The translations under genes and the position numbers were made by a program. Positions 3,669-64,000 of a stretch of 64,000 nucleotides of DNA are shown piece by piece; the first letter of the stretch is position 1; every line of letters starts with the position of its first letter. This DNA is from Macrobrachium rosenbergii (taxonomy: Eukaryota > Arthropoda > Malacostraca > Decapoda > Palaemonidae), in assembly GCF_040412425.1 (NCBI RefSeq), contig NC_089788.1:62528720-62592719 (forward strand), written 5' to 3'. The notes beneath the pieces are model-generated. The model was not told where the DNA came from, did not search any database, and saw only the letters and a list, made by a program, of their open reading frames with translations.

Positions 3669-3699
<31 letters not shown>

Positions 3700-3703
3700 A
3701 ATA
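3657..3703. repeat. (AAT)n microsatellite
   Basis: An interrupted run of about 15 AAT/AAA triplets. Such tails also end the non-LTR fragments elsewhere in this window, but the flank here does not resemble them. Confidence 0.9.
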
Positions 3704-26582: not shown

Positions 26583-29500
26583 TTGTGCATTCTTTAGCTG
26601 ATTCTGGACTCTCTGGCATTGGCCTCAGTTCTTCAGCTTTACTGTGATCTTGTACATCTGTAGCTTTAAAACTGCCTACTGGTTGCATCATGCCAGAAAA
26701 AGGCACACACCTCACCAAACTTTTCTTTGGTTCACTGACTTCTCTTGGAGTTTCTTCAGGTAAAACGGGCAAGCCCTCATAAGAGATCCTCCTCTTCTTC
26801 AACAAAGAAGGCTTTACAGATGGGCTACCATCTTCCCATGAGACTCTGCGCTTCGGTTTCCTCTTGCTAAGAAATGCAGGAGATGGGGTCTTTTCATTAC
26901 CAGAGGAGTCTCCACCAATGGGCGTTAAATGAAGAGGTGTTAACCGTGAGAATTTCTGTGGCTGTGGTGTACTAGTGTGATGATGCTGCTGGGATAAAGC
27001 AACGCTTGGTAAACCTTGAGTCAGAGATACATTACCATCTCTAGATTGCTGGTTATTTTGTCCACTTGAATTTTTCTGAATACTTCCATTACCAACAGTA
27101 CTGGAACCAGGAGGCAGTGCAGTGGATGATTTCTTATTTGAATCCAACTTTTTGTCCGATTTTGAGGATGAACCACCATCATCTTTATCTTCATCCTTCT
27201 TTTTCATAGACTTTAGGATCTTGCGAGCTTCCGCCCACTTCATCACCTCTGATGGTGAAGGTGGAACTTTTACTGGGGTCATGATGGACTTCGAAATTTT
27301 GTTGTCCTTTTTATTCACAATTAATTCCTGAGTAGATGGTCCAGCACAATCAGAATTCATGCTGCTCAGCAATAAACGCCAGTTGTAGAGCCCATTATTT
27401 TGATGAGGACCTTCAAAACTTTCAAAATCTGAAACTTCTTTGGATTTTAACTTCAGAACCTGGCCTCCAACTTCCATTGGTTTGGCAGGAATATCAAGTC
27501 TGTTACTACAAAATGCACCTGGGTGTATAACATCTGGAATATTATAATCTGCAAGGCTATTAATGATATCATCACAACTTGGTGGGGGTGGACAGTAAAC
27601 AAGAACAACTGAATTTGAAGCCTTTGTAGAAGAAAACGAAGTTTTCAACTTTGGTTTGTTATTTCCTGTGTTCTTGTATGTTTCTTGTCTTTTTTTATTT
27701 GATCTTCCTTTATCTTTGTTTGAATTTTCACCTTCTTTACTCTGTGTACTCTCACTGTTGCCCTGCTCACGATAGAAACCCAAGCCAGTACTTCCTGCAC
27801 CATAAGAAACGGGTAAAGTGTTCTCCTTAGGGAAAGAAAGTTTTGAAGGTTTTTCTGTACTAGATGCAGTGTAACTAATTCCATATGAAATTGACTTTGC
27901 TGGTAGAGGAACATATTCTTCATGACTTTCCAAGTCATCTAAAGGCTTGCTGGATTTAATATCAGATATATCACTTGGAATGTATTCTGGACAAGGTTTA
28001 TCAAGACCAAATGGAAGAGGGCAATATTCATCATCGGTACTACACGCAGTATTGGTGTCTTTTACGCCTGATACATCTCCAAGGCGCTTTTTAAGCAAAG
28101 AATCACACTTTGTTTTACTATATTTCAATGACTTTTTATCAGGTGTGTCTGTAGTAGGTTTGGAGTTAGGTTTCACGCTAGATTTGTATTTTCCCTTTGT
28201 GTCATCAGTCAGGGCATGTGGTCTCCCTTTGTCATCAGGTTTAAATCTTACTTTAGAAGAGGATGTTGGTTTATACTCTACTTCTAACCTTTCCTTACAT
28301 ATTGAAGAAGGGTTGTATTCAGCCTTTGTACGTGATTTAACTATTGTTGTTGGCTCATATTCATTTTCTGTGTCCTCTTTCCAATTAGAGCCTATGTCTG
28401 TTTCCTTTATACCAAAACTGGAGCTAGGTTCAAATAAAGATTCTAAGGATTCCTTGGACATGGTCTTAGATCCTGATTTATCTTTAGATGTGGAAGGTTG
28501 AGGTTTGTATTCCTCAGAAACTTCACTCTTTTCAGCTAGGGATGAGTGGCCAAATAACTCTGTCAGCTGCTTCCTCAAACTTGAGCCACGCATTTGTTGT
28601 TTACATGAGGGATTTTCATTTTCACAATCTTCAAACAAGTTGGCAACCATTTGCTTCAATCTTTTTCTTTTTTCACTTGCTGCCTCTTGTTTTGCTGCCT
28701 CTTGGCCACTAGCATTGCTGTCACTTTGATCCCAACGACTTTTCTTTGTCACTGCTGTTGCACTTGCATTTTTATCCTTAACATCCCAACGACTAATACG
28801 CTTCTTGCCTTTGCTAATAGAACTATTCTCTGTGGTTACTAAGAGTATTTTTCCATCCCCATTTTGGCTAGAATCAAACTTAGGTAGCAAGTTTACACCA
28901 CCAGTAACAATATCACGTTTTTCAAAACATCCTTGAACTCTACTGAGCACTTCAGTTGGATCAATCTTATCTGAGGATTTACACAGGTCTTCCATTCTCA
29001 TGTTTTCATCATCTGTGACTTTAGGGTCATGTGCTGGAGTGCAATCACTCTTTGTAGTCAAGGAAGACAGTTCCCGTAATGGCCCCTTGCATGGTTCCAA
29101 GGGAACTTCATTCTTTTGTGTCAATGGCAATGTATCATGGTTTTCAATTTTTGCTGGGTGTACACTCTTGATGCCATTTTCATCTGAATCAATCTTATCT
29201 CTGCTGGGCTCCTGCATACATGAATGGTGTTTTTCTTTGAATGTTGTAAGTACTTTAGTTTTGCCACAAGAATTCACACTAGGATTTCTGCAAGAATTTT
29301 CAGAAGGTTTTTTATCTTTTTTATTGGCAAGGGACTCCTTAGAACTTTCTTGTCTTTGTGTCTTTTTTGTGCTCGTTTTGTTTCTGTTCTTGTCAGCTGT
29401 GGAGAGCAACTCCTTTTTGTCCAAGCCTGAGACCTCTTTACTATCATTTTTACTGTCCGTATTGTGAATTTTCGTGGGATTCCCTTCTGAGCTGGAATTA

Positions 29501-32500
29501 CCACATACGTTCTGATCTGCCTTTCGTAGTGGTGCAACAGAATCCTTTGCTTTATCCTTTGCTTTGATGTCTTTCTCCTTTTTATCAAAAGTTTTTCCAT
29601 GGTCTTTCGTCTTGGATACTAACTGTGGTTTTTGTTTGTCAAGCATCTCTTTGTTATGTTTTTTATTTTCTGGCTGACTCAATTTCTTTGAAGATTCATT
29701 GTTTGTTCCTTTTGTTTTATCTTTACTTGTACTACCAATTAGTTTTTCCATACTTCCCATATTGCCTTTTAAGTCTGTCCTTTTTTTATCAACTTTTTGG
29801 GAATCAGGAATCTTTTCATTACAAACTTTAATTCCTGTAATACTGGGTACAATTTCAGCACTTGAATTATTTATCTCCTTAACTTCCTTACTTTTTTCTG
29901 TTACTTCCTGCACTTTATTTTCACATAATGGCTTCTCTTTCTGTACAAGAGAAAGAACTTTCTTTTTCTTCTTTTTAGGTTTTGTGTTGTAATCCTCACC
30001 AAATATTTTTGCCATTTCTCTATCAAAACCTGTTGATGGGATATTCTTGTCTTCAGCCTTTTTTGCTACACTTTTTGTTGTTGTTTTTATTAGATCAACT
30101 GACATTTTCCGCTCTTTCTTAGGGATCTCTTCAATCTTTTCTTTTTCCACCTGGGACTTGTCCTCATTCTTTTTTTCTTCAATCTTTTCTTTTTCCACCT
30201 GGGACTTGTCCTCTTTCTTTTTGTCATGTCCCTTTTCATTCAGACTTTCTTCTCTTTTGACTCTGGGAGCTTTCCTTTCCACATCTTGGTTTGTTTCTCC
30301 GCTATCACTGGTCCTTTTAAGTGAATCGTTTTCTTTAATTTTTGAAAGATCTTGCTTAGAATCAGACTTTCTTACTTTATCTTTTTTAGAGGATCTTCTG
30401 TCACTTTCTGAATGAGATTTATCACTTTTCCCATGAGCTGTGTGTTTTTTAGATTTACCTGTATCATGTTCTTGATATGGTTTTTCATATGATGATGACC
30501 TATGAGACTTTTCCTTTGAGTGTGATGATGATTTCTTACTCTGAGAAACAGAACTTCTAGAACTTCTACTCTCCAAAGAACTACTTCTTGAACTATTTTT
30601 GGAAGTACCACTACTGCTCTTTCCACTAGATGGTTTCTCTGTACTGCCATGATGATCTTTACTGTTACTGGGATGCTTTTTACTACTTTTATCACTTGAA
30701 GAAGCTTTTCGATCACTTGAATTTTTAGATGCTCTCTGTTTATTTTCATTATGCAAACTGTTTTTTTCTGAAAGAGCCTTAGGATCAGACATAGGAAATG
30801 TACTTTCACTAACTGAAGAGTGACTGTTTGTTTTATCTAAAATTTTGCTATTCTCTTTTTCCTTGTGAGAACCTTCCTTGTCATTTTCGATTTCTATTTT
30901 TCCATTTTCATCCAAGCTTCCACAAGTTTCAGGTTCTACATGTGAACTCTCTTTATTTTTGCAAGGTGTTATGGCTTTATCCTTTATACTTCCATCATTG
31001 CTGACCCGAGTTGTTTCAGTCACATCAGAATTCAAGGCTTTTGAACACGACTCTCTATCTTCTTTAATCGGTGCAGCACTACTACCATCACTATTGGAAG
31101 ACCATTCCATAGTAGCTAAGTCTTCACTAACAATATGTTCCTTGTTTACCACTGATTTTTTCATTGCTGGATCTGCATTGGACTCAGACTGACAGTTCTT
31201 TTCTGCCTCTAATAATGAATCCTTTGTCTCACCTGAATCTAACTTTTGAGGGTCCCTATGACTACACTCACTGACAGTGTGATCCACAGAAGTTGAAGCT
31301 TCTGGGTTTTCACAATCAACTTCCAGTGCTGCATGCCTTTTGGAAACGGACCTACTTGTACTATCTGAAGTAGCAGGAGGCTTTGGCTCTGCTGATATTG
31401 CTAAGCCACTGCCTTGGGTAGTCACTTCTTGTCTATCGCTGAAAATGCTAATTTTAGTGCTCTTAATATTTTCAATGTTGACTAAATCTCTTGAAATGGT
31501 TATACGAAAAGATCCACTGTTAACTTGTGCCGATGAATTATCCTCAACAGAGCTCTTGTCCTTTCCACTTGTTTGAGGTATACTGCTTATTGCCAAGTCC
31601 TCCTCCACCTTCTTCTGAGCTATCAATCCACCATCCTGCTCTTCAGAGTTGGCTCCTTCACTATCATACTTCCCTTTTTTCAGCTCATGATTACTTATTT
31701 CACTGTGACTTTTCTCATTCAGAATATTTACACAGGACTTGCCTGCTTTATCTACAGAACTTTCAGTTGGCGTTTGGTTCTGGCAATTTTGGAATCTCTC
31801 TTCTGCACTTACCTTACTCCTCCCACAAGATGTTAGTTGAATTTCTTCAGGATCTCTATAGGTTACAGAGGACTCATTATTTGATATTTCTGACGAGTTT
31901 ACTTTATCAAATTGCTCATTAGGCACTTTCTTTGTTTGAGATGAGGAATCCTCTTCAGTGTGTTTTGAAGGATCAGGTTTAGAAAATATACTGTCACTTT
32001 TGTGTGGTAGGGGGCTTTCTCTTTCATATGTCTGTTCATGCACTTTAGCCTTGTTTATACATTTGTCTTTATCAATTTTGGATGTATCCATATCTACAAT
32101 ATCTGATTTCTTTATTGATGTGCTGGAATTACATTTAGTTTGTTTGCTAGAAACACATTCAGAAGTTGCTGCTTCTTTGTTACTAACCAAATCAGTGAGA
32201 AGTTCCCTTTCAATCTTTGCCAAACTTTGACTTGATTTATTATCAGACTTTCTCTCCTTTTGCTCTTCATTGATTTGTTCACCTGAGTATGGTTTGATAG
32301 AATCTTGCTTCTCATTTGTTTTTGAATAATCAGTGATTGAGGTGTCTGACAGCCTCTTGGACACGTTATGCACACTTCCTTCAGCTGCTTCTACAGCATT
32401 CATTTTCTCTACGCTGGAATTATGAGATGGGGTTGGAGGTAAACTTATATTCAACTCAGAAGAAACCTCCTTTCTTGAATCCAGAAGTTCATTTGCACTT

Positions 32501-35500
32501 TTATCTTTCCCATTTCTGTGTTTTGTTCCTTCTTCTTGAAGCTGATTTCTAGTCTCCAACAGGCATTCTTCACTGGTCTTAAGGGAGTCTTTTGGCAGTT
32601 CACAGTCCTTATCATTTTCTTGGTCCTTTCCTTTGGCCTTTGATTCCAAAGGACTTTTACACTGGCCCACAGAACTCTTATTTTTTGGAGAATTTCTATT
32701 CTTTATTTCAGTGTCATCTACTTTAACAGGTGATGGTAACATTTCTTTTACTAATTTATCTTTGTGATGGTCTATCTTCAATCGTTTAGATGAATCTCTA
32801 CTGACGTTATTAGAGGATTTTTTCCCACTGGCATCAACAGAGTGCTGCCCACCTTTACCTGGAGATTCCAAAGAATGTCTCCTTTTCTGAGAATGACTTT
32901 TCCTGGAATGTAGCTGATCTTTCTTCCGAGTTTCTGTCACATCTTCCTTGCTTGAGTGGCAGGAATCTTTTTTATTCAAACAACTAGAACCTTTGCCCTG
33001 GCCCATAAGAGAATCTTGCCGTTTTTCTTCTGAAAGAGTCTTATTTTTAGTTTGAGAAACTTCTCTATTTGCCTCTTTATATACTCTTTTGTCTCGATTC
33101 AGGAAATCCTCTTCCTTATCACCTTGGCTCTCTTTGTGTTTCTTTTTAAACAATTCCTTCCTGTTAGGTTCCTTTTTGTCTGGCTCTGGTGAAACTTTTT
33201 TGACATCTTCATCACCAGACTTCTCTTTACAAAACTCACCCTCTTTAGAGATATTTTTGCTTGGTTTTGAGGAATCTTTTTCAACACTTCTATAGTTTTC
33301 CATTTTCCCCTTGTATGCATCTTCACCTTTTTTATTGGGTTTGGCAAGATCTTTCCTCGTATCAACTTGGTGTTTTGAAGAATGCGCTTTACCCAACTTG
33401 TTCTCCTTAGATTCCTTTTTGTTAGAGTTCACCAAATTTTTTCTATCAGTTTTGCTTTTCTCAGAAGCATGTTGGACATTCTTGTCTTTTATTCCATTCT
33501 CTGTGGAATTTTTTATCTTAGTACATGTAGTGTTCTCAGAATGTTTCCTCTCCCTTTCACCCTCCCTCATTTCTTTTCTGTCATGACTGGATTCTCCTGT
33601 AAGTGTTTTCTCACCACAATCATTAGTGTTTCCATGGCTGGAATACTTTGAGCTGTTCTTGTCACCTTCCAACAACTCTCCCTGATTAAACTCACTGGAT
33701 TTTACACAGCTTGATTCTCCTGGAATTTTTTGTTGTGAGGAATTCCTACCTGTCACTGTAAATTCTTTTATGTTTGATTTTGTCACATCTTTAAAATCCT
33801 TTTCATTTAACAAGTTTCTGCCTTTAAAGTTTGGATATTCGCCATCACCAGCGCTTTCCTGTTGGTTAACTTGCAATTCCTTGACTTCCTCATTGTTTTT
33901 CTTAGAGTCCTTCTGACAGATAGCTTCCTGTCCTGCTTGAATATTCTCTTCACGACGGTCATTCTTATCTGACTCTCTTTCTACAGTTTGATGAATCACT
34001 GACACTGATTTTTCTGGCACAGATTTTCTGGATTTGCCTGACTTTTCTTTATCTGTCATACACACACTTTCATGGTTATCTTCATCTTGTGCACTGCCAT
34101 GATTTTTACTATGTTCTGAAGTGTCAGGTTCTATTCTAGATGATGATGCTACTGCCATATGCATTTCCAATTCTTGAACATGGCTGACTTCAGTGTCATT
34201 TTGAGTTGCTCTCTCTGTTTCTTTTACATCTGTCTCCTGATGTTTTTCATCAACAATGTTCTTATTATTTTGCTTAGGTGACCCTGCTAATTCATCACCA
34301 GACTTTTGCATTACAGCACTGCCTTGAACTATATTCTGAGTACCAGCATCAGCCTCAGAATGGAGGTTTTTGTTCTGCATGTTGGCCTTTCTCATATCTT
34401 TAACACCATCTTCCTTTTCATTTTGTAGACCATGAGTATTAAAACTCTTTTCTTTACTATGACAATTTTCATCTACACTTTTATGACTTTGCTGACTTGG
34501 ATGAATGATAATTTTGTCTGAATGAGTATTGCCTTTTTCAGTGGCTTTAAGCCCCCGAAGTCTCTTTATCTTCAAAGTGCGCCTGCCACAAAGCTCAAGA
34601 GGTATCACTTTTGGATCATTTACCACTTTAGTACTTGGTGTGTTACCACCCATCAACTCCTCCACTCCACTATCACAAGAATTGACACTACTCTGACTTT
34701 CTTTAAGCTGCAGGCTTTTATCAGGAACATTTGCTCTTTTAGCTCCTCCTGTAGTCTGGTCTTTATTTGTCTCCAGACACATCTTGCTTAACATGCTATC
34801 TTCCTCATCTCTCAACTTGTCAAATTTGCTACCTAAACTTGTGGTATCACCAATGTTTACCTTCTGAGTATCTACATTTCTTTGACTTTCCTTCTCCCTA
34901 AACACTGAAACTTCAGGATCTTCCCCTGCAACCTGGCTCTTATTCTTAGAGTGAGCAAGTACTTCACTTGAAAAGTCACTTTTTGCAGAACACTGGGTGT
35001 ATTTCTCATCATTACTGCCACTGTTTTTCTGCAGACTGTATATTTCCTCAGCTCCAGGGCTTTCAAGAGTAGTTCTTAAATTGCTCTCACTTTCATTATT
35101 CTGACTTGCAAACTGCAAGAGATTCTTCTTTTGTCCAACTTGTTTTTCACCTTCACCTTCCTGCTCTACTGGCTTTTCAGATTCTGCTTCCTTCTCAAGT
35201 AATGGCTTTTCAGATTCTGCTTCCTTCTCAAGTACTGGCTTTTCAGATTCTGCTTCCTTCTCAAGTACTGGCTTTTCAGATTCTGCTCCCTTCTCAAGTA
35301 CTGGTTTTTCAGATTCTGCTTTCTTTTCAAGTACTGGCTCTTCAGATTCTGCTTCCTTCTCAAGTACTGGCTTGTCAGATTCTGCTTCCTTCTCAAGTAC
35401 TGGTTTTTCAGATTCTGCTTCCTTCTCAAGTACTGGTTTTTCAGATTCTGCTTCCTTCTCAAGTACTGGTTTTCCAGATTCTGTTTCTTTCTCAAGTATG

Positions 35501-38500
35501 GGCTTTTCAGATTCTGCTCCCTTATCAAGTACTGATGTTTCAGATTCTGCTTCCTTCTCGAGTACTGGTTTTTCAGATTCTGCTTCCTTCTCAAGTACTG
35601 GTTTTTCAGATTCTGCTTTTCTTAATTTGAAAATAAGTTGTCCCAAGTTTCTCTCTTCTATGCTTGCTTGTGCACCATGTGCATGACTAGTGCTTGATGT
35701 ATCTTTAGTTCTAACTTTACCTTCACCTTCATTAGTTTCAACAGTGACATCTTGAGAATTTATTTGTGACACTTTATCCTCAGACCCAAGACTTTTCTTT
35801 TCTTTCATTTCAACCTTTTTGTTTTTCTCACTGGGTTTGACAGCTTCATTTGCTTCCTCTGTATCTTGCAATGAACTCATGAATGAATCTGCAACTCCAG
35901 CTGCTTCTTTTCTTACATTATTACATGGATCTTTTAAAGCTGAACAGCTGTGCTGTTGTTTGAGATTATCAGACTCTGAGTTTTCCTGAGACAAAGTCAC
36001 TTCCTTTTCAACTTGTACTTCACTTATTTTCTTTAATTTGTCTCCAACGTCAGTATCTTTGGCAGCACTTGAAGTTATAGAGCATTCTTCTTCACATTTC
36101 TTATTTGAACTTTGGGAAGCCAGCTGAGGGCAAAGTTTTTCTTGGTTTGTTTTGTTCTGTTGTTCATGAAGTGAAAACCCTTCAGTAGGTGTTCCAGTTG
36201 GCTGAGCAGATTCTTTTACACCATCCTCAACCATAATCCTTTGGTACATTTTTGAAAAATCAGAGCTGGCCTGATTTTCATTATTCCCCTCTTGTTCTTT
36301 TTTACCGCCCTCTGTAGTACCCTCTCCTTTTTCCTCACGAGATTCTAGAGAGTCTGATGACTTTCTGGTAACTAACTTGAGTTTCTTTAGCTTTTCTGTG
36401 TCTTCTGCTGTACTGATAGTTCCTTCTGAGGAAGAGTTGCTTGTACCCAAAGGTAGTTTCGAAGACTCTCTGGAATTTCCTCTCCCAAAGAAAGCTCCTG
36501 GTGTAGGTATGAGAGCACATGATTCCATAGCCTTATCGGGAATCAATTTTTTTGTAGAGTTATTAGTGTCATCTGATACTTCTGGAATGACTTTAGGTGT
36601 CATATTTTCAGACAAATTACTGTCTCCCAAAGAGCATGAAGCTTCCTTGCACAAATATTGATCAGTGTTCTCAGAACACTCAGAAGTATCTTTAGAGGAC
36701 TGGTTTGTAGCTAAATCAACAATAGTCTCTAATATTTGTTCTGTTTCTTTGCAAGTCAATCTGGTGTCATGGCTATCCCTCTCTGCACATGCTCCAGGAT
36801 TATTTTTCAACGACTCTGCCCTGACATTTTCATCAGTAGTTTCAGATGTTCCTGGAATTTCTTTCGATGGTAAGTTTTTGGATATAACACTACTCTCCTG
36901 TTTTGTTATTTTTACATTAGATTCCTTTTCAGCTGAGACAATTAACACTTCCTGTGACTGTGTAGGTTTTACTAATGATAATCTATCACTTGTTCCCACT
37001 ACAGCTGCACTCCCAGTTTCTTTGCATTCTGATTCATCTAAGGTATTTTGAGAGTTTTCTTCGTAAGATTTTGTCCTATTTTGTGAATTCTTGTTTTCAA
37101 ATGACATATTTTCTAGGGCAGATTCCTCACAGGTAGTCTGATTTACAGCAGTTGATAACTCTGTGGACAGGGTATCGTTACAAGATTCATCTATAGCAGA
37201 GCTGTTACTTGGAATTTGTAATCTTGGACTGTTTTCTGATGATAAATTATCCAAGTGTTTATCATGGTCTACTAATACGGTGGAATTTTCTCCTGTAAAT
37301 TTGGATGCATTAACTTTACCTGATTGATCTTGCAAATTCTGTTCTTCCTTTGCATGTAGAACAGTCTTTTTGTCAATTTTCTTAGAATTACACTGATCCT
37401 GAAATGGAACAATGACACTCCCACTACAATTCTCTGAATTAATTTTAGATACAAGATTAGAGGGGCTTTCCTTCTCTGAAAGACAGCTAACACTCGATAA
37501 ATTCAACTGAGCTTCTGTTCCTTCTGTATCTTGCTGAGAAACATCAATATTTGGCCTATTGTCCACATCCTTTTCTAAAGGCAATGGAATACTGTCAGAA
37601 TTCCTGCCAACAGATTCATCTGTCTCTGCGGGATCAAAGGATACTGATGAGTCATCCAACTCAAAAGAATTAGGTGCTTCAGGATTTTCATTCCCAAATA
37701 AATCATCTTCCAAATCATCAAAATCTGCTTCAGTGGATGAATGGCAAATATCAACTTTAGGCTCTATGGATTCAGTAGGCTCCTCTAGGATCTTAGTTTC
37801 CTTGTCATCACCTTTCACACTATCAATATTCTGGTTAACATCTCTGCTGGATATTTCAAGGTCACTGTCACATTCATCATTATGCATGGTCAAAATAACT
37901 TCCGAACCTTCATCCTCTGACAGAGCATCAGCTGTGTCATGATCACTGCTAATACCTGAAACAGTCATTGCATCACTTTTATCCTTTGGTAACTGTTTGC
38001 GTTCTGCTCCTGCAGCAACGTTCGCTTTTTCATTACTGTTTCGTGACTCCATTGATGACACTTCACCTTCCTCCCCACAAGATGCATCACTCTGTAGGAG
38101 AGAAGGAGAGGGATTATCTGAAAGTGAAAACACCTTGTCAATCTGACAGATATTCACACTTCCAGATGATGTTCCACTATCTGTTCTGACCCTCTCAGAT
38201 AACATGTCATGTACTCCAACTTCATCTTCCACTGTTACTTCACTCAAGGGATCTTGCACTTTGCGTACATGGGAGCCACTGACTTCAGGAAGTTGTTCAA
38301 AATCAATCTCCTCAACTGGCTCAACCAGGTCTTCAGTGAGGCCTAGACTTTCCTTCAAGTAACTTGTTCTTTTCTTATCACTCTTCTCTATTGGGATTAT
38401 TTTTTCAGCTCTGTGCTCAATTCCACTCAAGTCAGTGTGATCAAACATAGGTGTGTTTTGCACCAAATCCACTGGAGATGATAAAATGGCCATTGTATGG

Positions 38501-38545
38501 TCAGATGCTGAATCTGAAGGGTCTCGACGTACAGGACTCTCAAAG
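26583..38545 (-). CDS. REV3L: REV3 second giant linker exon, with REV7-binding region near its 3' end
   Basis: The exon is 11,963 nt with no stop, from acceptor CCTCAG|CTTTGAG to donor GCACAA|GTAAGT, giving 3,987 full codons plus split codons at both ends. The first two thirds are Ser/Glu/Lys/Asn-rich and highly charged, with a 14-copy 11-residue repeat, Lys/Ser blocks and RS-like serine runs. The last roughly 350 codons carry the diagnostic part: a VYCPPPPSC motif, an FCSNRLDIPAKPMEVGG block about 25 residues later, then an IMTPVKVPPSP motif followed by a helical Lys-rich segment. This order (REV7-binding motif, FCSN block, second REV7-binding motif) is that of vertebrate REV3L. Vertebrate REV3L also encodes much of its linker in one very large exon, but far smaller than this. 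The upstream acceptor is in phase with the 82-nt exon and the downstream donor with the 131-nt exon. The apparent ATG at 38568 lies in the intron and is not a start. Confidence 0.93.
27225..27620 (-). other. REV7 (MAD2L2)-binding region of REV3, two motifs
   Basis: Read on the minus strand, motif 1 (about 27611-27567) is LVYCPPPPSCDDI. The block AFCSNRLDIPAKPMEVGG follows (about 27516-27463), and motif 2 (about 27287-27241) is SIMTPVKVPPSPSEV. Human REV3L has two REV7-binding motifs of the form (hydrophobic)2-x-P-x3-P-P-S-R flanking the same FCSN block. REV7 dimers bound here link REV3 to REV1 in translesion synthesis. In this copy the terminal Arg is Cys in motif 1 and Pro in motif 2, and the first Pro of motif 1 is not in the expected place. 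Confidence 0.82.
30131..30213 (-). repeat. two-copy 48-bp in-frame duplication in coding exon
   Basis: A 35-bp core starting at 30131 recurs at 30179, an offset of 48 bp or 16 codons. Each copy encodes EDKSQVEKEKIEE. The near identity of the copies suggests a recent slippage or duplication. Confidence 0.9.
30420..30690 (-). other. Ser/Lys/Arg-rich RS-like segment in REV3 linker
   Basis: The encoded stretch is dominated by serine runs interspersed with Lys, Arg and His (for example SSRSSSLESRSSRSS). It is low complexity, positively charged and likely disordered and phosphorylated. It may contact nucleic acid; that is inference from composition only. Confidence 0.7.
35163..35619 (-). repeat. 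14-copy 33-bp tandem repeat inside the coding exon
   Basis: Fourteen in-frame 33-bp units encode variants of AESEKPVLEKE. Changes are mostly single-residue (D, G, T, I, K) and the last unit diverges to VEQEG. The unit length is a multiple of three, so copy-number change keeps the frame. The array is Glu/Lys-alternating and probably forms a charged helix or a flexible spacer. Confidence 0.95.
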
Positions 38546-40620: not shown

Positions 40621-40675
40621 CCTCAGAAACCTTTGGATGCTGCTGAGTAGGAAACAGTAATTCCAGCTTTGTTGA

Positions 40676-43176: not shown

Positions 43177-43258
43177 CTTCCAGGCTGACAAGTTAGGAAA
43201 GTTGGATAAAGCTGCCTTGTTCGCACACTTCTTTGACAACCTGATCTTCCTGGGACCC
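43177..43258 (-). CDS. REV3L: REV3 82-nt linking exon between two giant exons
   Basis: The exon is bounded by acceptor TTTCTAG|GGGTCC and donor GGAAG|GTAAAA. It enters with two bases that complete a Gly codon from the giant upstream exon, encodes 26 full codons, and leaves two bases (AG). Those two bases form a Ser codon with the first base of the next giant exon. The peptide contains GRSGCQRSVRTRQLYPTF, a compact basic and aromatic stretch unlike the low-complexity sequence on both sides. One alternative frame is also open through the exon, but only the frame used here joins both neighbours. Skipping the exon would shift the frame (phase 1 donor onto an acceptor that needs two preceding bases), so it is obligatory if both giant exons are translated together. 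Its function is unknown. Confidence 0.78.
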
Positions 43259-52500: not shown

Positions 52501-55500
52501 TACTGCAGTTTCCACCTTCCCTTCACTAAATTGTTTCTGTGATGATATATGATGAAGTGATTTCCCCAATCCTTCTAAAGTTGAGGTCTCTGTTACACAT
52601 GCTTCCTCTGATTCTGATAAAGGAGGAATATTAATCTCAGGTTGTGGAAAATCATAGTCTACTACATTAATTGGGCTATCCTCAGGAGAGTTCTCCTGAC
52701 ATGCTTTGGATTCACTGTCCTTGTTCTGTTCTGAATGGAGATTCTGCACACTTGTAAAAGGTTTTTCTGACTCTGACAAACTCTTTTCATGCTGATATCG
52801 CTGTACTGGTGCACGGGAAGACTTATAAGGCTCCAAAGGAGTATGCTGATTGAAAAGAACCCTTGAAAGACATGAGTCCACAATATATGGTTGTCTTACC
52901 TGCATGTGCATTTGACTGGACATTCCTGGCCACCTATTGTAATCTGGGGGTATCGATTCTAATGGAGGGAATCTGGGTTGTTCGTGGTACTTGAATCCTC
53001 CCCTCCAACGTAACTGACTAACATCCTCTTTGCTTACAGTTTGGGAAGAAACTGTTTCATCCTTAGGTGGAAAATGAGATCGAGATGGTGCACCATACCT
53101 CGCTATATGTTGATGACCTGAATCTAAGGTCATCAAAGGATCTGCAGGACGGAAACCAAAATTCATTGGTTTAAAAATAGAATCTCTTCGTAATCGATCT
53201 TTTGAGTGAGGGTCTGGTGGCCTGTTACCAGGCATACGATAACTCCAATCAGGAGGCTGCTGCATAGGTGTGACACCTGATCCACCTGGTGGTGGTGCCA
53301 TAGCATGAATAACTGTTTTTGATGGAGGTGGAGGTGAACTCACAATACTACTTTTACTTACTGCAGGACTCGGTGTAATTCTCAGGCAAGGAATGCTCTG
53401 AGTTTGAGGCAATGTTCCTGGATAAGGCAAAACTTCAGGATCAGCTGAATCCTCTGGCATTAGAGTAACTGACCTTTTACGTAGTGGACGGCACTGTTCA
53501 TTACCATATGCTCTTCGCTGTGCTACCAAATTTTGCAGGAGATGTCCCTCACTATATGGTTCTGCAACAAACTTCTTGGGATAAGAATCATGTGAAAAGG
53601 GAGGAATTACTTTACTATCACTGCCTTTTTGAATAACTAATGCCAAAGGAGATGTCTGCTGACCCTGAGGTTCTGAGCTAGGAGAAGAAGCAGGAACTTT
53701 AAGAGGTGTACTTGGGGTACTCTCTGATGACCAATCAGTTCTACTCTTTGAACTGTTTGAACTTGGGGATTCAATAATACGGCGCACACAGCCCTGAGGT
53801 GTTCTCAAGGTTCTTATTTCTTGGTCACTGCCAACAGATGGACAACTGGAAAATGGAATCTGCAACTCAACCCCAACAGACCCAAGTGAATCAACTGACC
53901 TTGCATCAGGTTCAACTATTGGACTTGGTCCAGCTGCCCCTATCTGTGACCCCGGAGTGTTTTGTCTTGTCTGAGTAACAGGTGTAATCTGAGGCACAGG
54001 ATTTCCATCTCTAAATACAGGTGCTCCATAATCAAATGAACCAAGCCTAGGAACTAAAGTGGGATGACTAGTATGGCCTGTAGTTGAAGGGTAAACTTCA
54101 AACCGATTAGGCTGTGGGCCAGGAGATGACACTCCTTGGCTACAGCTGTTGTAAGAGAGAGGAACTGGCCCAATTTTGGAAGCAACTTCTAACTTGGATT
54201 CACTGGAGTACGCTCCTGTTACAGGTTCAGCCGAATGAGTTCCCTCTGGTGTTCGATTGCGAGATGAGTGTATCAAATGCTTTTTCAAGTTATTTATCAC
54301 ATGTGTTTTTGGTTGAGATGGTTCAGTTCCATCCAAAGTCACCTGAGGCTGACTAACTTCAGATCCATGCATGGGTAATAAGTAAATAGGTTTATTATTA
54401 GAAACACCTGAATGTGTTGTGGAAACAGGCAAAACTTTACTAGAAGTAACTGATGTGCTGAAGCTTTTTGGAGGAAATTCCTTTACCCCTACAGTCTCTA
54501 ATTTGGAAAGCCTTGAATCTTGCTTTGGTAATTTATCTGAATTATTAAATTCTGCATTTAAAGATGCATGGGCATCACTAAAAATGTTTGGTGATGCAAT
54601 CCGTGTTATCTTTACCAATGGTGTTTCTCTGCCAGCATGACTACTAGATAAAACTGAAGAAAGTGATGTAGGACATGGCAATGTTGATGATTGAGGTGTA
54701 TGACAAGGCAGAACTGGCAACACTGTAAGGCTGGGCACAGCCGATGATACAGACATTGGACTGGGCAATGATGATGTGACAGAGATGGTGGATAACAATG
54801 ATGGTTGGGAAGTAAGACTAAGCACTGCTGAGGACACAGAAGAATGAATGGGCATGGCAGCAGAAGACAAGTTATTGCCACTGGACACTGATGGTGTAAT
54901 GGATGAATGATTCTGTGATGACTGGGAAATAGAGATATGACTGGGTGCCACAGACAAAAGGGGTGTGCGACAAGGTACTGGTGGAGAATGTGATGCATGA
55001 CTTGACAATGATGAAGGAAATGATGTTAGACTGGGACTTCCAGACGACATGGGTAAATTATTTGATACTGACATTGGTACACATGCAGGACTGGTCTTGT
55101 TTGAAGACAAAGGTGCATGCCTCAGCACTTCTGATGCCAAACTTCCATGACCGGGGACAGCCAGAGATAACACGTGACTGGGGACTGTAGACAACATAGG
55201 TTGAGAACCAGATATTGTTGATGACATAGACAAGTGACCAGGCAATGATGATGAAAGGCATACATTACTAGACACCGATGAAGGTAGACTTATATGACTG
55301 GGCACAGTAGAAGGCAAACAAACAGGACAAGGCACTGGCAACGACACAGATGTGGGTACTACAGGAGAAAGAGATGCATGACTCATACCCGTTGATGAAA
55401 TGCATAGACTGCTTGGCATTGCAGATGATACAGACAAATGACTGGGCATTGCTGGCATATGAGACACATGACTGACAACTGATGATGACGGGGATGTGCA

Positions 55501-58500
55501 ACTGGTTACTACTGAAGAAACAGACCCAGGAACAACCATTGGTGATGCCAAAGAGACACGACTGGGAGCCAATGATGAGGTGTAACTGGACTCTACTGCA
55601 GAATGGGAAATACTGGTGAGTAATGATAAAGATGAGGGAGCATGAATGGGAACTACTGATGAAAGGGACACCTGATTTGGAGCTGATGATGACGAAGACA
55701 TGTGACTGGGTACCGTTGACAATAACGGCATCTGACTCTGTCCAGCTGATGACAAAGATACCTGACCAGGTCCTGTTGAGGAAAATGAGGAATAAGACAT
55801 TTGACTGACCACTGCTGAAGAATGTGAGATGTGGCTGGGAGTAACTGTAGATACGTTCAAACTCCTTGTAGCTGCAGCACTTACTAGATGAGAAGCAGAA
55901 GTAACAGAACTAGCTGATGCAGTTGTGATTGGTGCAACATTCAATTTAGCAACAGCAGGTGCAGTTACTGACAAGTCCATCAATCTCTTGGATTCTATGG
56001 ATGAATAACTGGTCGAGCCCATCATTTGTGAAACAGATACTGCAATTTGGTCATGAGACTCAGTAACAGGCAATGAAAAAGGAATATTTGTATGAGGTGT
56101 CATATACTTCACAGGTTCCTTAAAGCTAAGAGGAGTTCTTATTGGAGAAGGCGGTAAAGACATAGTGCCCCTCAATGAAGCAGTGGAGGCTTCATTTCTC
56201 ACAATAAAACTTGGAGATAGCCCTCGGTCAGGATGCAAGAAATTTCTTGTATTTGGCAATGAAATGTGTCTACCTATAAACTGTGTGGATTTTTGAGTTC
56301 CCTGAAATGGTACTGATAATGGCTGACTTGCAACAGATAAAGGACGAGGCAATGGCTGTACGTTTTTTTCACTTGTTGGAGAAATATGGCCAGCAACTTC
56401 AGCAGAAGAAATTCTGCGATATTGTGGACAAGATGCATCTGGGACTGAATGCCCAGTGGAAATGGCAACTGGAGAATCAGTATCAAGGCAAGATGACATG
56501 GAACCAGCAGGTGAAACCTGTGGTAAATTCTGTGATGATAAACTCTGTGTGACGGTTGACACAACAGAGGGCAAGGAACTAGAGGGAGCAGATGTAAACG
56601 TGACTTGAGGAACTACACTTTGTATACTCTCTGTGGATGAGGCTGGAGAAACACTAATCTTTGAGAAAACATAAGAAGATGTAGCTGCTGGCGGAGTCCC
56701 ACATGAACTACAGTTTGGAGTTAGCTGGGGGCTTGCTGTTGATTTTGGAGTCACTGACATTTCTGAAGGGCTACGAATAGTTTTATCTAATGATGGAACA
56801 GCCTGATGTGGAGAGGCTAAGTGGGTACTTGTAGTTAGTGATGATGGAGATTGTGTGACCACGCATTCAGTAATGGCTTTACTCTCTGTATTAAGAGCTT
56901 CAGACATGTTCAAAAATACTGGTAACGCTGCAGTTCCTGGCTGATACACACTTTTATCCATTATTGAGACCTTTGTGACTTCTACAGTCTCCTCAACCAA
57001 TGGGGGCACCATGGGAAGATGGTTACCTGGACTAAGCTTAGACTCTTTGGGATTTTCAGAGCTGTTAGGTACAGCTAAGGGTGACTCACAATATTTGTTC
57101 TGGGCATTATCACTTAAGGTTTCCTGAGCATTTCTCCCTATACCCTCCAAGTTGTTGTTCTTCAAAGACTCTGGAGTACTAGCACTCTGAGAGGAATTGT
57201 TGGACAAAATCATTTCTTCAGGATTACCCACTATGTCAGTGATGTGAGAATTACCCTGCGAGTCTGAAATACCTTCTTGGCTTTTTTGAGGAACATCTGC
57301 CAAAATAACAGCTGGAAGAGATGGCTGTTCTTGGATATCTGGAGTCCCATCTGCAACTTGATCTGCATAATTCTTATTTTGATCTTTGATGAAATGACCA
57401 TCCCCAACAGAAACCTCAGAATTCTTTTCTCCTTGGGTAGGTACGGAGTAGTTATTGCTACCAGCATTGATGACAACATCCTTTCCTTCACTATCAACCT
57501 TCTCCTTTTCTGATAAAGAATTCTTATCTGACTCCTCTTGACACAATGCTTCTAATGTCCTAAGAACAGGTAGCATAGTTGTTTCCTTTGGCAATTCACG
57601 AGGTGTAGAATCATTATCTTCATTGAATACTGTGTCTTTATCTGGTGGTGAATCTGGATTTCCTTCATTATTTTCAGTTGACATACAGGACTCTCTATCT
57701 ACAGAAATTGCATTTTCTTGATTGTTAACATTTTCAGTGTTACTTACTGAAATAACATCAGAGGGTTTCTCAACACCCACTTGAAACGTGGGTAAGCTCA
57801 GCTCATCAACCAAATCTTTAACACAGTCACTGTCAAAACTACCAAGTTGTTGAAAGGCCTGCTGAACAATATCAATCTTTTCTTCGTTTCCTGAGCATGC
57901 TCTATTCACACTGTTTTCTGCAGTCTCCTCAGGCAAACCACTGACACAACTGAACAGGTTACTTTGGTGAGTGGAAGCTTGCTCAATACTTAAAACACTA
58001 CCAGAGCCACTACTGTCCAAGGGAGTTATAATCTCTGTGAATGGAAGACCTTGGATATTTGCAACAGCAGTAGTATTCGCAACAGGGATACTTGAGCTCA
58101 ATGTTACAGGGAGCTGAAAATTAGACCCAATTAATGAAGCCTCAGTCTGATTCAAGTTGACAGAAGATGCATTCATTGTATCTATTGACCCTACAGATAC
58201 AGCACTAGATGTCTGATTAGCCTGAGTTTCAGTACCTGAAACCATGGGTGTTATGACAAATGGCATAGATGATACATCTTGAGGCATTATCTGAAGAGGC
58301 ATCAAAATCATAGGAGGAGCATACAAGGTGGGAATGGCATCTACACTACCATCAGGTTGTGAGAGAATGACAGGTACAGACTTCTGTTCCTCACCACTTG
58401 GGACTGTGCCTGGAGACTCTCCTCTGTTTTTTGAAGCTGCAGGAGCACTCAGCTGTGCTTGCAGTAAAGGCATAGTGGTTGAAAACACTGGCTCAGAAAC

Positions 58501-61500
58501 AGTCGTTACAAGATTACTGGAGAGAGATGGTGAGCTATTAACATTATTGCTGCTTTTTGATGTCAGAGTTCCTTTTAATATACTTGGAGAAGAAGTTACA
58601 ACAGGTGTTATGTTAGGTCCTTGACCTGACATGCTAACAACAGTCTCCACTCCAGAGAGGAACGTACTTAATGTACTAGCTGTACTTCCACTTTGAACCA
58701 CCGATACTGGTGAAGAAGACGAGTAAGAAACGACTGAGACTTGAGCAGGGTCTGAAGTACATATCCCTAATGAGGATGATGTAGGAATATTTGACCATAA
58801 TATGGGTGATGTAACTTGAGCACCAGGGGTGTTTACATTTGATGCAAGAGTCACAGGTTGGGGAAAATCATTTCCAGGAAGTACCTGCTCACCCGACAGA
58901 CCAACCACATTCACTGTATCCACCTGAGATGGAAGACTGATTGAAACTGTCATTGTCTGTGCTGGAAGTGTGGTTGTGGTATGCGTTGTGACAGAAACTA
59001 GAATATTTCCATCTACAACAGAATCTCCTGATCCAACCTCTAGTGACTGTGTACCTGCATTTTTCCCTGATTTTTTCTGACTGGTAGAAGAGGACACTGG
59101 GCTCAGAAGGAATGAATGTGCCGGGGAACCTACTGGTTTCTTGTCAAATGATGATGAAAAGGAGGATGTGGAGGATAAAATTTCCAAGCTGCTACTACTG
59201 CATGGAGTACAAGCTGAGGAAGCTGGAATGTTCAAGTCTGTCTTATCTTGAGGTTCTGTACCACTTACAGGTGAAGAAATTACATCATGTTGTGAAGTGA
59301 CTGAAGGAACATCAAAAATTGAAGTTGAAGTATTGTATTCATCTACTGACTTTGGTTCTAATGAGCAATTTTGGCCACCACTACCAGCATTAGCTGTTGT
59401 TGCAAAAGATGAAGCCTCCCCCAGTGAGACTGATCTTTGGGAATCACTTACAACAGACTCAGTATTAACTGCCTGTAGCTCTGTGACTGGCTGTTGAGGT
59501 GATATTTGAGAAATGTGTAAAGGTGTTTTTGCCACTGGACTTAAAACAGAACTTTGCACAGTTGGTAAAACAGGCAGTGGACTATACTGATTATCTTGGC
59601 TTTTCTGACTACAAGGGCTTGCAGACAAGGATGAACTAGGAGATGCACCTGAGTTCTGGAGAGACTGATCTTGACCAGCTTTTGCAAGTGGCGTTAAAGG
59701 GGCACTTAAAGGAGTTATGGGAGCAGAAATGGATGGCATGGAAAGGGACAAGGTAGACTGGGAGGAAACAACACTGTTTTCAACAGGCGTTCCCAGAGTC
59801 TGTTGACTCAGTGCAGTTGAATGAGAAGGTTGCTGAGGTGATGGTAAACTATCAATAGGAGTCAATGGTGTAATAGGTTCCTGAAGAGGTGTCATAGCTA
59901 TTACCTGGCTTGAAGAAACAAGTAAATGGGGTTCCTGTGAAGATGGTGTCCCAGACATTTGATCATCCTGCAAGGAGTCACTAACATTCTGTGTGGTAGC
60001 TTTTGGTGGTTGTGATACTTCTGCAGTAACCTGAGAAGGGGGAAATGTTGGCTGATTGTCAAATATTGTCTGTGGCGTATGCACTGGAGTCTGAGGACCA
60101 TAAGCATTAGGGGTGAATGGCATATATAATGGTGACTGACGAGGAAGAGATGACTGATGAGAATATGATGGTGTATGAGGTAAAGGACTTATTAATGGAC
60201 CAGGGGAGGGTAGGTGAGGTAGGGGGCTGGGCATGCTAACATCATTTTCACACCCATAATGAGTTGGTGTGTGTGGCATTGGACTAACAAGGGGTCCTAC
60301 TGAAGGATAAACAGGCATTGATGGATGCCTAAAATTATCATCATCAATATACGTAGGTGAAGGAGGAATAGGGCTTTTTGCTTGATCCAAGGCAGAAGGT
60401 TTTGTCACAATATCAGGATTTAAATTAGGTTGAGTGTGAGACTCTATAACATGAGCTGGCGTAGCTGGCATAGGGCTCATTAAAGGTTGCACAGAAAGAT
60501 GATGTGCTGCTTCTTGGAAGTTAACAAACTGACTAGGAGTACTACTGGCTGGCAAACATTCATCTCCTTCACTTCCTCTACGAGGTGTATCTGGCATTGG
60601 GCTAAGCAAGGAATTGGTCATTGAAAAACTCTCAGGAATACTATGAGTTGGAGTATTAGCAACTGGACTGATCATGGGTCCCATTAATGAAGGGAGCACT
60701 GGCATGGGACTAACACTAATTGGTGATGTAACACGAGCAGGAGTCGGAGGGATAGGACTCATCATTGGGCCAGGAGCGGTGGGTAATGTGAATGCATGAG
60801 ACTGCGATGGTGTAATGGAACCAGAAAGGCTCACTGAATGCTGGGGGCTGGCAGGGTGCAAGCGTAGGGAATTATCTTCAGAAGGCTGATGGCTGGGAGT
60901 CTGAGCTATAGGGCTCATCATAGGCTGTAATTTCTCCATTGTAGGAATGCCAGTGACATCAAGGCTTGAGACAGGTCCACTGTCATCTCTATGGGGTGCT
61001 GGTGTACATGGCATTGGGCTCATTAAGGGAAAAGATGCATTGATCAGAGAGTTTATATCCTCATTTTCTTCTATAGATGTTCTATTCTTAAAACAATCCT
61101 TTTCACCAGTCTCTTCACTAAAATTTCCAGAATGAATTGGTTTTGGTTTTGAAGGTTTTTTGACAATTTCTGAGCCCATTCCCACTTCAGTTTTGGCTTT
61201 ACAGAAACTTGAAGCAAGTGAAGGAATGGATTTCAGCATCTTCTCTTTTGACTGAGTGTAGCTTTGATTCTTCTGAAATTGTGTCAGTCTACTTTGATGA
61301 GATCGATCATGCATATGAGCTGCAACGTCAGTGTCCAGGCCATCACCTGAACGAGAATAGGAAGAACCATCACTATTGGGCCATTTTCTGCCCCTTGGTG
61401 GTGATAAAGACTTCTCTTCCTTTCTTTGTCCCTTTTTGGCAGACTGATGGCCACTATTTCTGTGAGGAGAAAAAGAACTTGAAGATTTTACAGTACCAGC

Positions 61501-64000
61501 AGACAAAGAAAGAGACGAATCTATCACTGGAGAGTGGCTACCACGACCTGGTTGAGATCGTGGGTGAGGTGATGATGATGATGGATTCTTCGGTGAATGC
61601 TGAGATGCTGATTTTGAGGAATGAAAATGAGACACCTTTGGAGATGCACAGAAAGACTGTGGACGACTTCTTGGGGACTGGCCCTGGAACTTGGGAGAAT
61701 GTTGTGGTCGTTCACCCTGTGAAGGTTGAATATTAAGATTTTGAGCAGAATGTAACCTTCCCTGAGATGAGTTTGGTCTGTTTCCTTGACGGTAGGGAGA
61801 CCGAGTTCCACGTGCCTGTGGTTTTACTTCATCCAACTTTTCTTCCTGAGAACTTTGGTTTGACTGTCTCCCTTCATCCAGCAAAGACTGTCCACTCTGA
61901 GTTGAATATTTGTTATTAGATGACACCTGTGACGAATTTCCTAGCAAGGACTGGCTATGTCTTCCTTGATAAGACTGAGTCCCACTTTCTTGACTAGGGT
62001 ATGACTGGTTGCCATGAGGATGCTGTTTGTGATCTCTTGAAGATTGTTGCCAACCTCCTTGTCCATGTTGTTTTAAGTTCCTGTCAGCTGACTTTGTTCG
62101 ATATTCCTGAGCAGGTAACTGAGGTCTTTGACCAGACTGAGAACGGCCTCCAGGATGTGCTTGACTCCCCAGACTGGATGAGTGCGAAGTTTTTGTGGAT
62201 GACTGAAAAGCCTTTCTTTGAGGAGACCCAGACTTACTCCCTTTGGAAGACAGTGACGAGTTGCCTGGCAAATGCAAAGATCGATGACTTGGTGAAGATT
62301 GTGTAAGGGTATTTGATTGTGGGTGGTGTGACGATGACTGCAAAATTCTGTTATGATGACGGTGTCTACCCTCGCGCTGTAATTCACTTTGGCTGTGAGG
62401 TGGAGATTGTGACCTGCTGTCCACAGGACGTGCCTGATTTCTTTGCTGTGGTGACTGATGGCGATTTCCTGGACAAGATGATGACCGACTGTTATCGTGT
62501 ACCTTACTCGAGTCTTCCATACCATGGATATGTGAAGAATGTCGAGACCCTGAATGCTTCTGAGACCTTTCAATTCTTGCATCATCTGTAGGCTGCGTCC
62601 TCCGGCCTTTATCATGGCGACCATATGACTGCGGCCTCCCAGAAACTGTTTTTGATTCTTTTGTCTCATGAGGACTGGGATCAAGGTGACTTGATTTCTG
62701 CATACTTGATAGCTTAACAGCTTTGCCTTCCTTTACACCAGATATCTGGTGCACTTCTGTACCTACTGGAGCACTGTTCTGCAGTTCTCTGTGCTTAATA
62801 TGATCTTTGTACTTTTCAGTGTTTCTTTGGTTAGTTGTATTTGGTGAGTTATTGCTTTTTCTAACATTAGTGACATCATCCTTACCTGCTGCTTTTTTCT
62901 TCTCTCCACTACTTTTGCAGTGGGAGGAACTGTCAGTGCTCTCCTTAAAGGAAGGCATTTCTCTGAGCATCTCAGGTAATTTTGTACTATAGACAGGCGA
63001 TTCTGCATTTGGTGTCTGAGATGCAGATACAGGACTAGAATCTGCCCCAGGTGTTCTTGGACGTTCATATGGGGAGCTTATCATGTAATAAGAGTCAAAT
63101 ACTGAATCATATGGCATTCCTGATACATTTTTCTGTGACTCACTTAAAAACATATTTGGCCCTTCACTGCCACCACCACCAGGGGTGACTGGTCTTTCTG
63201 GAAGACTGCTTATGTCATCATAAATATAATCTGATACTTGCTCTTGTGGAGCCTGGGAAGGGGTATGGAATGGTTGACTATCTTCAACACCCAGCCCTGG
63301 GGTCTGAGGCCGGCCTTGAGAATGAAAACTAAAACCAAAACTATTACCATGCTCAGAATGAGGTGAGCTTCCAATTTCTTCAACAGCCTGACTCTCCTTT
63401 TTCAACCTAGAGGGAGGACAGGAAAGGGAATCATCTTTTGATTTTGATGGAGGAGGAGAAAAAGAGCCAAATAACCTTTTCATCTTTCTCTGTGATTTCC
63501 TTTTTAAGGAAGTATTTCCTTCAGACCCTGAATCAATTAATGAAGAACCTGCTCTACCATTATCATTTTTATTCTGACTAACGCAACTATTTCGATTTTC
63601 ATTCTTTTTTGAAACTGGGCCTGATCTACTAGTGTCTTTCAAAGCAATACTGGACTCAACAACTGGATTACCTGGTGTTGGAGGACAATCAAAGTCACTC
63701 ATCCAATCTGTGTTCACACAATTAGATGTTTTTACTAAATATTCTGTCTCCTGTAAAGGCTGAGATGCTTTTGACAAAGTGGGAGGTGGAGTTGATGGCT
63801 CATGCACTGGAATAAAACTACCTGGTGTGTGTGGCATTTGGTCAAAGTCGTCAAAGAGATCTGACCCTCCAACGTCAAGGGGCTGAGAAATTTTGTCAGG
63901 ATAACATTCACTAGGGGGATTTACTATGGGAGAATTTTCATAAGTGTTACCTCTTGAAGAAGACAATTTGTGAGTCTCATTCCTTGAAGTGTGCCTGGTA
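43560..64000 (-). CDS. REV3L: REV3 (DNA polymerase zeta catalytic subunit), giant linker exon, 5' end outside window
   Basis: A single reading frame with no stop runs from the window edge for 20,441 nt (6,813 codons plus one base). It ends at a clear donor (CTCCAG|GTATGC) and leaves phase 1. The protein is mostly disordered: Ser/Pro/Thr-rich with TPG motifs, SPMPxTPxH motifs, Ser-rich repeats, an AT-hook cluster and basic blocks, then an acidic, Ser-rich end. No catalytic domain is visible. I place it in REV3 because its donor phase continues through the 82-nt exon into the exon that carries recognisable REV3 motifs, all on one strand. Taken alone, this exon has no sequence I can match confidently to human REV3L. 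By position it would be the linker between the N-terminal polymerase-B-like domain and the catalytic core. No real start codon is visible; the frame is open upstream. Coding status is near certain, REV3 membership strong but inferred. Confidence 0.84.
48420..48670 (-). other. basic Pro/Tyr-rich island in REV3 giant exon
   Basis: The minus strand encodes RRTP-type repeats (YLRTPLRTPCHTSGYSGG, then TPLYSPMYTPVH), followed by a hydrophobic-basic stretch with KLKLIKKPPREKQIILRIKK. Alternating hydrophobic and basic residues here could form beta strands, unlike the flanking Ser-rich sequence. I do not recognise a named domain. A link to the basic central domain shared by vertebrate REV3L and NEXMIF is possible but unproven. 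Confidence 0.5.
49270..49725 (-). other. AT-hook-like cluster in REV3 giant exon
   Basis: Three motifs lie within about 450 bp: LRGRGRRAKAN (about 49720-49683), KRRRGRPRKTK (about 49525-49488) and PRPRGRPPKKS (about 49312-49270). The second and third carry the RGRP core of classical AT-hooks, which bind the minor groove of AT-rich DNA. A Lys/Arg-rich block (about 50030-49880) precedes them in the protein. They are spaced about 70 residues apart. Confidence 0.8.
51544..51720 (-). repeat. short RSPC/KSPC repeat in REV3 giant exon
   Basis: The translation repeats (R/K)SPC or (R/K)SPx every 8-14 residues, including the doublet KSPCIADRSPC, with near-identical DNA in the duplicated unit. Each SP is a potential proline-directed phosphosite, and the Cys residues are unusual for a disordered linker. 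Confidence 0.8.
52790..53300 (-). other. aromatic, less disordered island in REV3 giant exon
   Basis: Within a Ser/Thr-dominated exon this stretch is rich in Trp, Phe, Tyr, Arg and Pro. Examples are FKPMNFGFRPADPLMTL, LRWRGGFKYHEQPRFPP and a PPDYNRWPGM segment, then IVDSCLSRVLFNQHTPLEPY. Such composition suggests a bound-on-folding peptide or small domain. I do not recognise it as a known family. Confidence 0.5.
54650..55900 (-). repeat. degenerate Ser-rich repeat of about 13 residues in REV3 giant exon
   Basis: Over about 1.25 kb the protein repeats a unit close to (S/A)xVPSHxSLSS (for example TVPSHMSSSSS, VVPIHAPSS, MPSHLSVSS). In the DNA the repeats are highly diverged. Over thirty approximate units can be followed by eye. 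Confidence 0.85.
60070..61030 (-). repeat. SPMPxTPxH motif array in REV3 giant exon
   Basis: About eleven copies of a motif resembling (L/M)(M/I/V)SPMPxTPxH recur every 25-40 residues (MSPMPCTPAP, MSPIAQTPSH, MSPIPPTPAR, ISPVANTPTH, LSPMPDTPRR, MSPMPATPAH, KSPIPPSPTY, VSPMPHTPTH, ISPLPHTPSY). The motif is kept while the spacers vary. This suggests a repeated docking or phosphorylation element (SP and TP sites). Confidence 0.88.
63040..63840 (-). repeat. xPxTPG motif series near the window-edge end of REV3 giant exon
   Basis: Five motifs occur over about 260 residues: MPHTPGSF, CPPTPGNP, RPQTPGLG, RPVTPGGG and RPRTPGAD. They are set in acidic or aromatic contexts such as FDDFDQ and YIYDDI. 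The spacing is irregular and the function unknown. Confidence 0.8.

Follow-up and report, generated by a model that had tools for sequence, protein, structure and literature searches.

A Macrobrachium rosenbergii REV3 gene with a linker probably encoded by two giant exons

The window, by which we mean the whole stretch of 64,000 nucleotides of the Macrobrachium rosenbergii genome analyzed here (contig NC_089788.1 of assembly GCF_040412425.1), is dominated by two minus-strand stop-to-stop frames, 26530..38598 with 4,022 aa and 43417..63999 with 6,860 aa, of which the latter is open at the window edge; no further frame of at least 300 aa is present. These frames supply two giant exons to a chain of six that we assign to the gene of REV3, a subunit of polymerase zeta (Table 1). 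The chain sums to 32,817 nt or 10,939.0 codons (hereafter the window model) with zero stops and all junctions in phase, and canonical splice sites are found at 43560|GT, AG|43258, 43177|GT, AG|38545, 26583|GT and AG|26424, with CCAG|GTATGC as the donor of giant exon 1. By frames, splice sites and phases, the count of six in-phase exons and 10,939 codons upstream of the catalytic core given in a preliminary description of this DNA is exact, and the more than 10,700 residues that it had placed in two giant exons compare with about 10,800 codons in the giant exons alone. Nor can the stop-free frames be put down to chance, as it had also stated: the two other sense frames contain 336 and 694 stops along the 20.4-kb exon and 182 and 570 along the 12-kb exon, and the log10 probability of no stop by base composition is -182 and -131, respectively. 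In Pfam searches at E ≤1, exon 1 had no match and exon 3 a single weak, irrelevant one (E 0.37).

Table 1. Features of the REV3 locus in the window, following the coding chain on the minus strand; residues are those of the window model.
Feature	Position	Strand	Description
Giant exon 1	43560..63999	-	at least 20,440 nt, frame open at window edge; 6,813 REV3 linker codons
Five P-x-TPG motifs	63046..63837	-	residues 55-318
Nine-copy array	59521..61023	-	P-phi-phi-S-P-phi-[PA]-x-T-P-x-H; residues 993-1493
Two AT-hook-like RGRP cores	49276..49512	-	residues 4830-4908
Conserved island SVQYSDGISDCDSEYRDSMWNMAFFTPEHREKDEISPLQ	43573..43689	-	just before the micro-exon; longest of 23 islands
82-nt exon (micro-exon)	43177..43258	-	AG/GT flanks; sets the phase between the giant exons
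Giant exon 3	26583..38545	-	11,963 nt; AG/GT flanks; linker through REV7-binding region
33-bp tandem array	35167..35618	-	13.7 copies, 91% match; codes AESEKPVLEKE; in exon 3
First REV7-binding site, degenerate	27574..27606	-	VLVYCPPPPSC; Y at first consensus proline; from alignment with eight relatives
Second REV7-binding site, intact	27256..27285	-	IMTPVKVPPS; from alignment with eight relatives
Exon 4	26294..26424	-	131 nt; called from AG/GT flanks and phase only
Exon 5	26024..26140	-	117 nt; called from AG/GT flanks and phase only
Exon 6	12909..12992	-	84 nt, GLDGPTLNNTYGFKFSNHNLREAKALHE; AG/GT flanks; last before catalytic core

The 3' side of the chain is anchored by tblastn searches of the window with 37 database proteins (P0005-P0041; 36 REV3-like records and one Penaeus chain), of which 27 match the REV7-binding region at 26773-27852 and 19 match the exon at 12909-12989 with the NTYGFK segment that precedes the exonuclease-like domain (E<1e-3 in both cases). 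Exonuclease-like/polymerase (PF03104, PF00136) and C4 zinc (PF14260) domains have no match within the window. Since none of the 49 tblastn matches at E ≤1e-2 lies wholly below 12876, the polymerase domain appears to be encoded outside the window; the N-terminal domain would be encoded past position 64000. Both points agree with the preliminary description, which had reported the two parts as missing. One of the two REV7-binding sites (IMTPVKVPP) fits the consensus phi-phi-x-P-x-x-x-p-P given in the available text of PMC11747621, with Y replacing the first P in the other; the excerpt of PMC8468184 gives an alternative consensus, phi-phi-x-P-x-x-x-x-P-S-R, in which the eighth position is free. 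The other decapod models described below stop before reaching the degenerate first site. Among the intronic sequences, broken frames at 17232-18269 on the minus strand and at 17403-17839 lie in a REV3 intron without Pfam matches above cut-off and with a 226-bp tandem duplication; they are reminiscent of a tyrosine-recombinase retroelement. A weak RVT_1 trace at 13571-13798 on the plus strand (E 0.023, below cut-off) is probably a decayed intronic retroelement, and 18227-18553 on the minus strand, also intronic, weakly resembles Glyco_tranf_2_4 (E 0.00048), short of the curated cut-off. The window contains no RNA families at gathering threshold and no tRNAs by ARAGORN.

A search with residues 2900-6800 of the frame of the 20.4-kb exon returned two decapod proteins. 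The first, SK128_007274 of the caridean Halocaridina rubra (P0003; 7,585 aa, partial), has PF24055 and PF24065, the Pfam domains of the REV3 N-terminus, and is collinear with the window model in BLAST matches at residues 44-2173, 3023-4060, 4621-5505 and 6751-7145, which leave gaps at 2174-3022, 4061-4620 and 5506-6750. Its last match begins within exon 1, passes over the 82-nt exon and reaches into exon 3; this single chain runs from the REV3 N-terminal domains through the homologue of exon 1 and the 82-nt exon to the start of exon 3. The second protein, from the astacidean Homarus americanus (P0004; 4,436 aa, partial), matches residues 3227-4057, 4619-5213 and 6762-6856. The peptide of the 82-nt exon aligns over both junctions in the two species, with 61 of 96 residues identical in Homarus (64%) and 52 of 118 in Halocaridina; the Homarus alignment includes the micro-exon peptide, with LYPTFLTCQPG against VYPTLLTLQLG, and the exon-3 start SFESPVRRD. 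Giant exon 3 is matched at its 5' end by these two proteins and at its 3' end by the 27 of 37 tblastn queries mentioned above.

A third chain, from the dendrobranchiate Penaeus chinensis (P0023; mucin-4-like, 2,939 aa), begins with PF24055 and PF24065 and continues from the REV3 N-terminus into the linker, where it matches residues 527-1522 of the window model. Neither domain is present in the window; both open the chains of Halocaridina and Penaeus that are collinear with it. The Penaeus protein ends inside the linker in the tail KLYPTLCIPCLQ (its last 12 residues), which is weakly like the micro-exon peptide and may reflect either a short isoform, spliced internally from the giant exon to the micro-exon, or truncation of the gene model. 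All three proteins are incomplete gene models that stop before the catalytic core, no single record among the decapod relatives spans N-terminus to core, and residues of about 7,250-10,400, the middle of exon 3, have no aligned relative. The three chains are nevertheless collinear pieces of apparently the same giant protein, though the names given to them do not say REV3.

Further evidence comes from the island that ends exon 1. Abalone REV3 matches the window at 43689-43561 by tblastn (E 0.001; abalone YEDVMYKLALVSPPQSDKGETSPPIPLSP against window YRDSMWNMAFFTPEHREKDEISPLQ), and an island profile built from the three decapod sequences alone and run on 45 non-decapod REV3 records found this island in 18 of them, from molluscs and echinoderms (iE ≤0.01; best 4.4e-08), with 6.4 as the best value among 90 reversed or shuffled controls. 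Because the island is present in non-decapod REV3 linkers, the 20.4-kb exon ends on its 3' side in what is, on sequence grounds, old REV3 linker, and this holds independently of decapod gene models. The distance from the island to the first REV7 site is 439-698 residues in four mollusc records versus 3,717 in the window. The same island presumably also resembles the DVMSKLGFL...SPPRCWSP stretch of human REV3L. At the same level of iE ≤0.01, which one control reached with 0.009 for one of them, the other 22 islands found no match among the 45 non-decapod records, and most of the linker is therefore tied to REV3 through the decapod models only. That the 20.4-kb exon belongs to the same mRNA had been offered in the preliminary description as an inferred step; with the single-chain decapod models and the shared island, the assignment of this exon to REV3 is now supported by comparison of sequences.

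Along the linker, blocks of 250 residues are 14-56% identical to the window where relatives align, compared with 65% between Halocaridina and Penaeus in the N-terminal domain. Island scoring, which covers the 4,293 of 10,939 residues with at least two relatives, detects 23 conserved islands, 22 of them in exon 1, and permutations of conserved columns give at most two (n = 200). The P-x-TPG motif occurs five times in the window, five times in Halocaridina and four times in Penaeus, and [RCM]P.TPG is absent from all 45 non-decapod records. The nine-copy array is present with nine copies each in the window, Halocaridina and Penaeus (where one copy is lost and one gained) and in none of the 45 non-decapod REV3 records, counts that refer to a pattern written after viewing decapod sequences and to an array part that the Homarus model does not reach. 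Its copies are spaced by 35, 52, 30, 22, 42, 64, 32 and 216 residues in the window and by 30, 52, 30, 22, 42, 67, 30 and 221 in Halocaridina. AT-hook-like RGRP cores, in turn, are found at three sites each in Halocaridina and Homarus and also in several non-decapod REV3s, so that they are not specific to decapods. The window model contains 246 S/T-P sites versus 195.8±10.6 in local shuffles, and none of its 10,939 residues matches APIM or PIP (PCNA-binding) patterns. Charge-hydropathy plots class as disordered 158 of the 217 segments of the window and 85 of the 144 segments of the Halocaridina linker, as opposed to 0 of 15 and 1 of 16 segments in two catalytic parts and 0 of 5 in one N-terminal domain.

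By BLAST matches, the part before the window start amounts to about 1,160 residues in Halocaridina and, in Penaeus, to about 1,270 (window residue 44 corresponds to Halocaridina 1206, and Halocaridina 1202 to Penaeus 1314); upstream counts of 474 and 487 from MAFFT were set aside since that global alignment scatters the initial residues of the window. Downstream, 798-955 residues follow the part covered by the window in 24 of 28 measurable records, and the other four, with 302, 407, 539 and 705, look truncated. Adding these flanks to the 10,939 residues of the window, we estimate a full protein of 12,900-13,200 residues, around four times the size of human REV3L, with a linker of nearly 12,000 residues, which is in line with the earlier expectation that it would exceed 12,000. 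Non-decapod REV3 lengths among the matches listed are 1,474-5,646 aa, from two N-terminal searches (19 and 28 hits) that scored only candidates sharing most words within length limits.

The REV3 insertion is coded by a single exon whose variation makes protein sizes differ, and the mammalian linker exon amounts to 1,386 aa, according to the available text of PMC6895278; with exons of at least 20,440 and 11,963 nt, the window shows this trait of a giant-exon-coded linker and is an extreme of the known one-exon linker growth, with two giant exons instead of one. Human REV3L (3,130 aa) likewise combines an N-terminal domain, a large exon-coded and partly disordered insertion, REV7 sites and the core. 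It differs in that the window linker has about eight times the length of the 1,386-aa exon and is coded by two giant exons split by an 82-nt exon, that neither giant frame has a Pfam match at E ≤1 to the DUF4683 (NEXMIF-like) region, a trait of vertebrate REV3L, and that the first REV7 site of the window is degenerate. The REV3 proteins of molluscs and sea cucumbers (18 records, 4,231-5,646 aa) share the long linker and the same REV7 region, and many of them carry the island that ends exon 1, but they have less than half the estimated length of the Macrobrachium protein and lack both the nine-copy array and [RCM]P.TPG. We found no paper on a giant crustacean REV3 in the open-access literature searched, including one search of which the best 12 of 9,091 matches were listed; judging by a title in the reference list of PMC8494903, a Macrobrachium nipponense polymerase zeta cDNA has been cloned.

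We consider it highly probable that the locus encodes a REV3 in which the giant-exon linker is translated as part of one chain and serves as a mostly disordered, regulated scaffold; the frames, splice sites, phases, homology and islands are read directly from the sequences, and from them we infer the continuity of the transcript as well as fold and function. The exons of the window would be translated between the N-terminal domain and the exonuclease/polymerase core, and the two protein ends would fold together as in other B-family polymerases while the linker between them loops out as a tether that is mostly disordered and drifts over most of its length. Short islands would be kept by selection, namely, the nine-copy SP/TP array, the TPG motifs, the SEYRDSMWNMAF island and the intact REV7 site, and these may act as docking and phosphorylation sites that turn the linker into a regulated scaffold around polymerase zeta. 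S-P and T-P stand five residues apart in the array, which points to a proline-directed kinase, and P-x-T-P is also a form of Cks-type docking; the reader of the array would most likely be such a kinase together with a phospho-TP-binding partner.

A different function of the array, a bank of weak REV7 (safety-belt) sites switched by S-P/T-P phosphorylation, is suggested by its phi-phi-x-P-x-x-x-x-P spacing, which 23 of 27 copies fit with two aliphatic residues before S-P, and by the degeneration of the canonical first site. If true, many copies of REV7 could be threaded on a single decapod polymerase zeta, a megadalton chain that would gather partners. We regard this as improbable because T occupies the eighth position in all 27 copies (TP having been demanded by the pattern itself) and SR follows none of them; as REV7-binding sites, the copies fit neither of the full consensus patterns given in the accessible parts of PMC11747621 and PMC8468184.

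The regulated scaffold has to be weighed against a linker that is real but mere ballast, grown by slippage or insertion and only joining the two ends of the protein, which we view as unlikely, if still a serious contender. The wide variation of REV3 size among animals and an identity as low as 14% in single blocks speak for such swelling. The 33-bp array in exon 3 and an unrelated long array toward the end of the Homarus protein (AQVSAKTKDD), in roughly the same linker region, fit it as well, and these two arrays suggest that the middle of exon 3 is still growing. Islands and a nine-copy array with kept spacing speak for constraint instead, and exon 1 yielded no long direct repeats other than short tandem arrays, of which TRF reports three there. 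Growth by internal duplication was tried as an explanation and rejected, as direct repeats of at least 40 bases over 26530-63999 are limited to the 33-bp and a 48-bp tandem, both in exon 3.

It is rather unlikely that the giant exons are real but mostly skipped or truncated, with a short protein as the usual product and the 13,000-residue form as a rare one. The Penaeus chain, which stops inside the homologue of exon 1 with a tail weakly like the micro-exon, could be such a splice form, and there is a precedent in human REV3L, whose exon 13 contains a cryptic 3' site repressed by RBMX according to the available text of PMC11446547. Exon 1 of the window holds 18 GTRAGT donors (15.3±3.7 in synonymous shuffles) and so shows no clear depletion of cryptic donors, and acceptor-like sites in exon 3 are somewhat above synonymous shuffles (12 versus 7.0±2.7). 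Yet, the Halocaridina and Homarus models read through, and 22 of the 23 islands, which look selected, lie in exon 1, where a rarely used exon would show them less clearly. GTRAGT in exon 3 also falls below shuffles (4 versus 8.9±2.5, with 6 of 200 as low), though as one of 12 comparisons. AGGTRNGT is absent from exon 1 versus 2.8 in shuffles, with 11 of 200 as low. Over all six patterns and two exons, the results are mixed, and we dropped the idea of selection against cryptic splice sites.

That the 20.4-kb exon instead forms a gene of its own, upstream of REV3 and with a 3' end near 43.4 kb, is highly improbable. Its frame does continue past 43560 to a stop at 43417, and the Homarus and Penaeus chains are annotated under other names. 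The 47 read-through residues after 43560, however, have no counterpart in any of the three decapod proteins (best E 0.71), REV3 N-terminal domains precede the exon-1 homologue in one chain in Halocaridina and Penaeus, and in Halocaridina and Homarus the chain continues across the junctions to exon 3. The presence of the last exon-1 island in non-decapod REV3 linkers makes two genes less likely still, and on the combined grounds of single-chain relatives and shared island, we rejected this reading. Collapsed repeats or a chimeric contig deserve next to no credence, since three decapod proteins share the order seen in the window and its 32.8 kb of coding sequence keep an intact frame, even if only one assembly is at hand.

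For a REV3 with a giant-exon linker as favored here, the list of islands, including one that molluscs and echinoderms also have, makes the purpose of the fast-drifting polymerase zeta linker testable. Exons of more than 20 kb and 12 kb that contain donor-like sites likewise offer a test of how splicing tolerates ultra-long exons. Finally, annotation may split or misname giant REV3 genes, as the names mucin-4-like and Ribosome-binding protein 1-like 8 illustrate.
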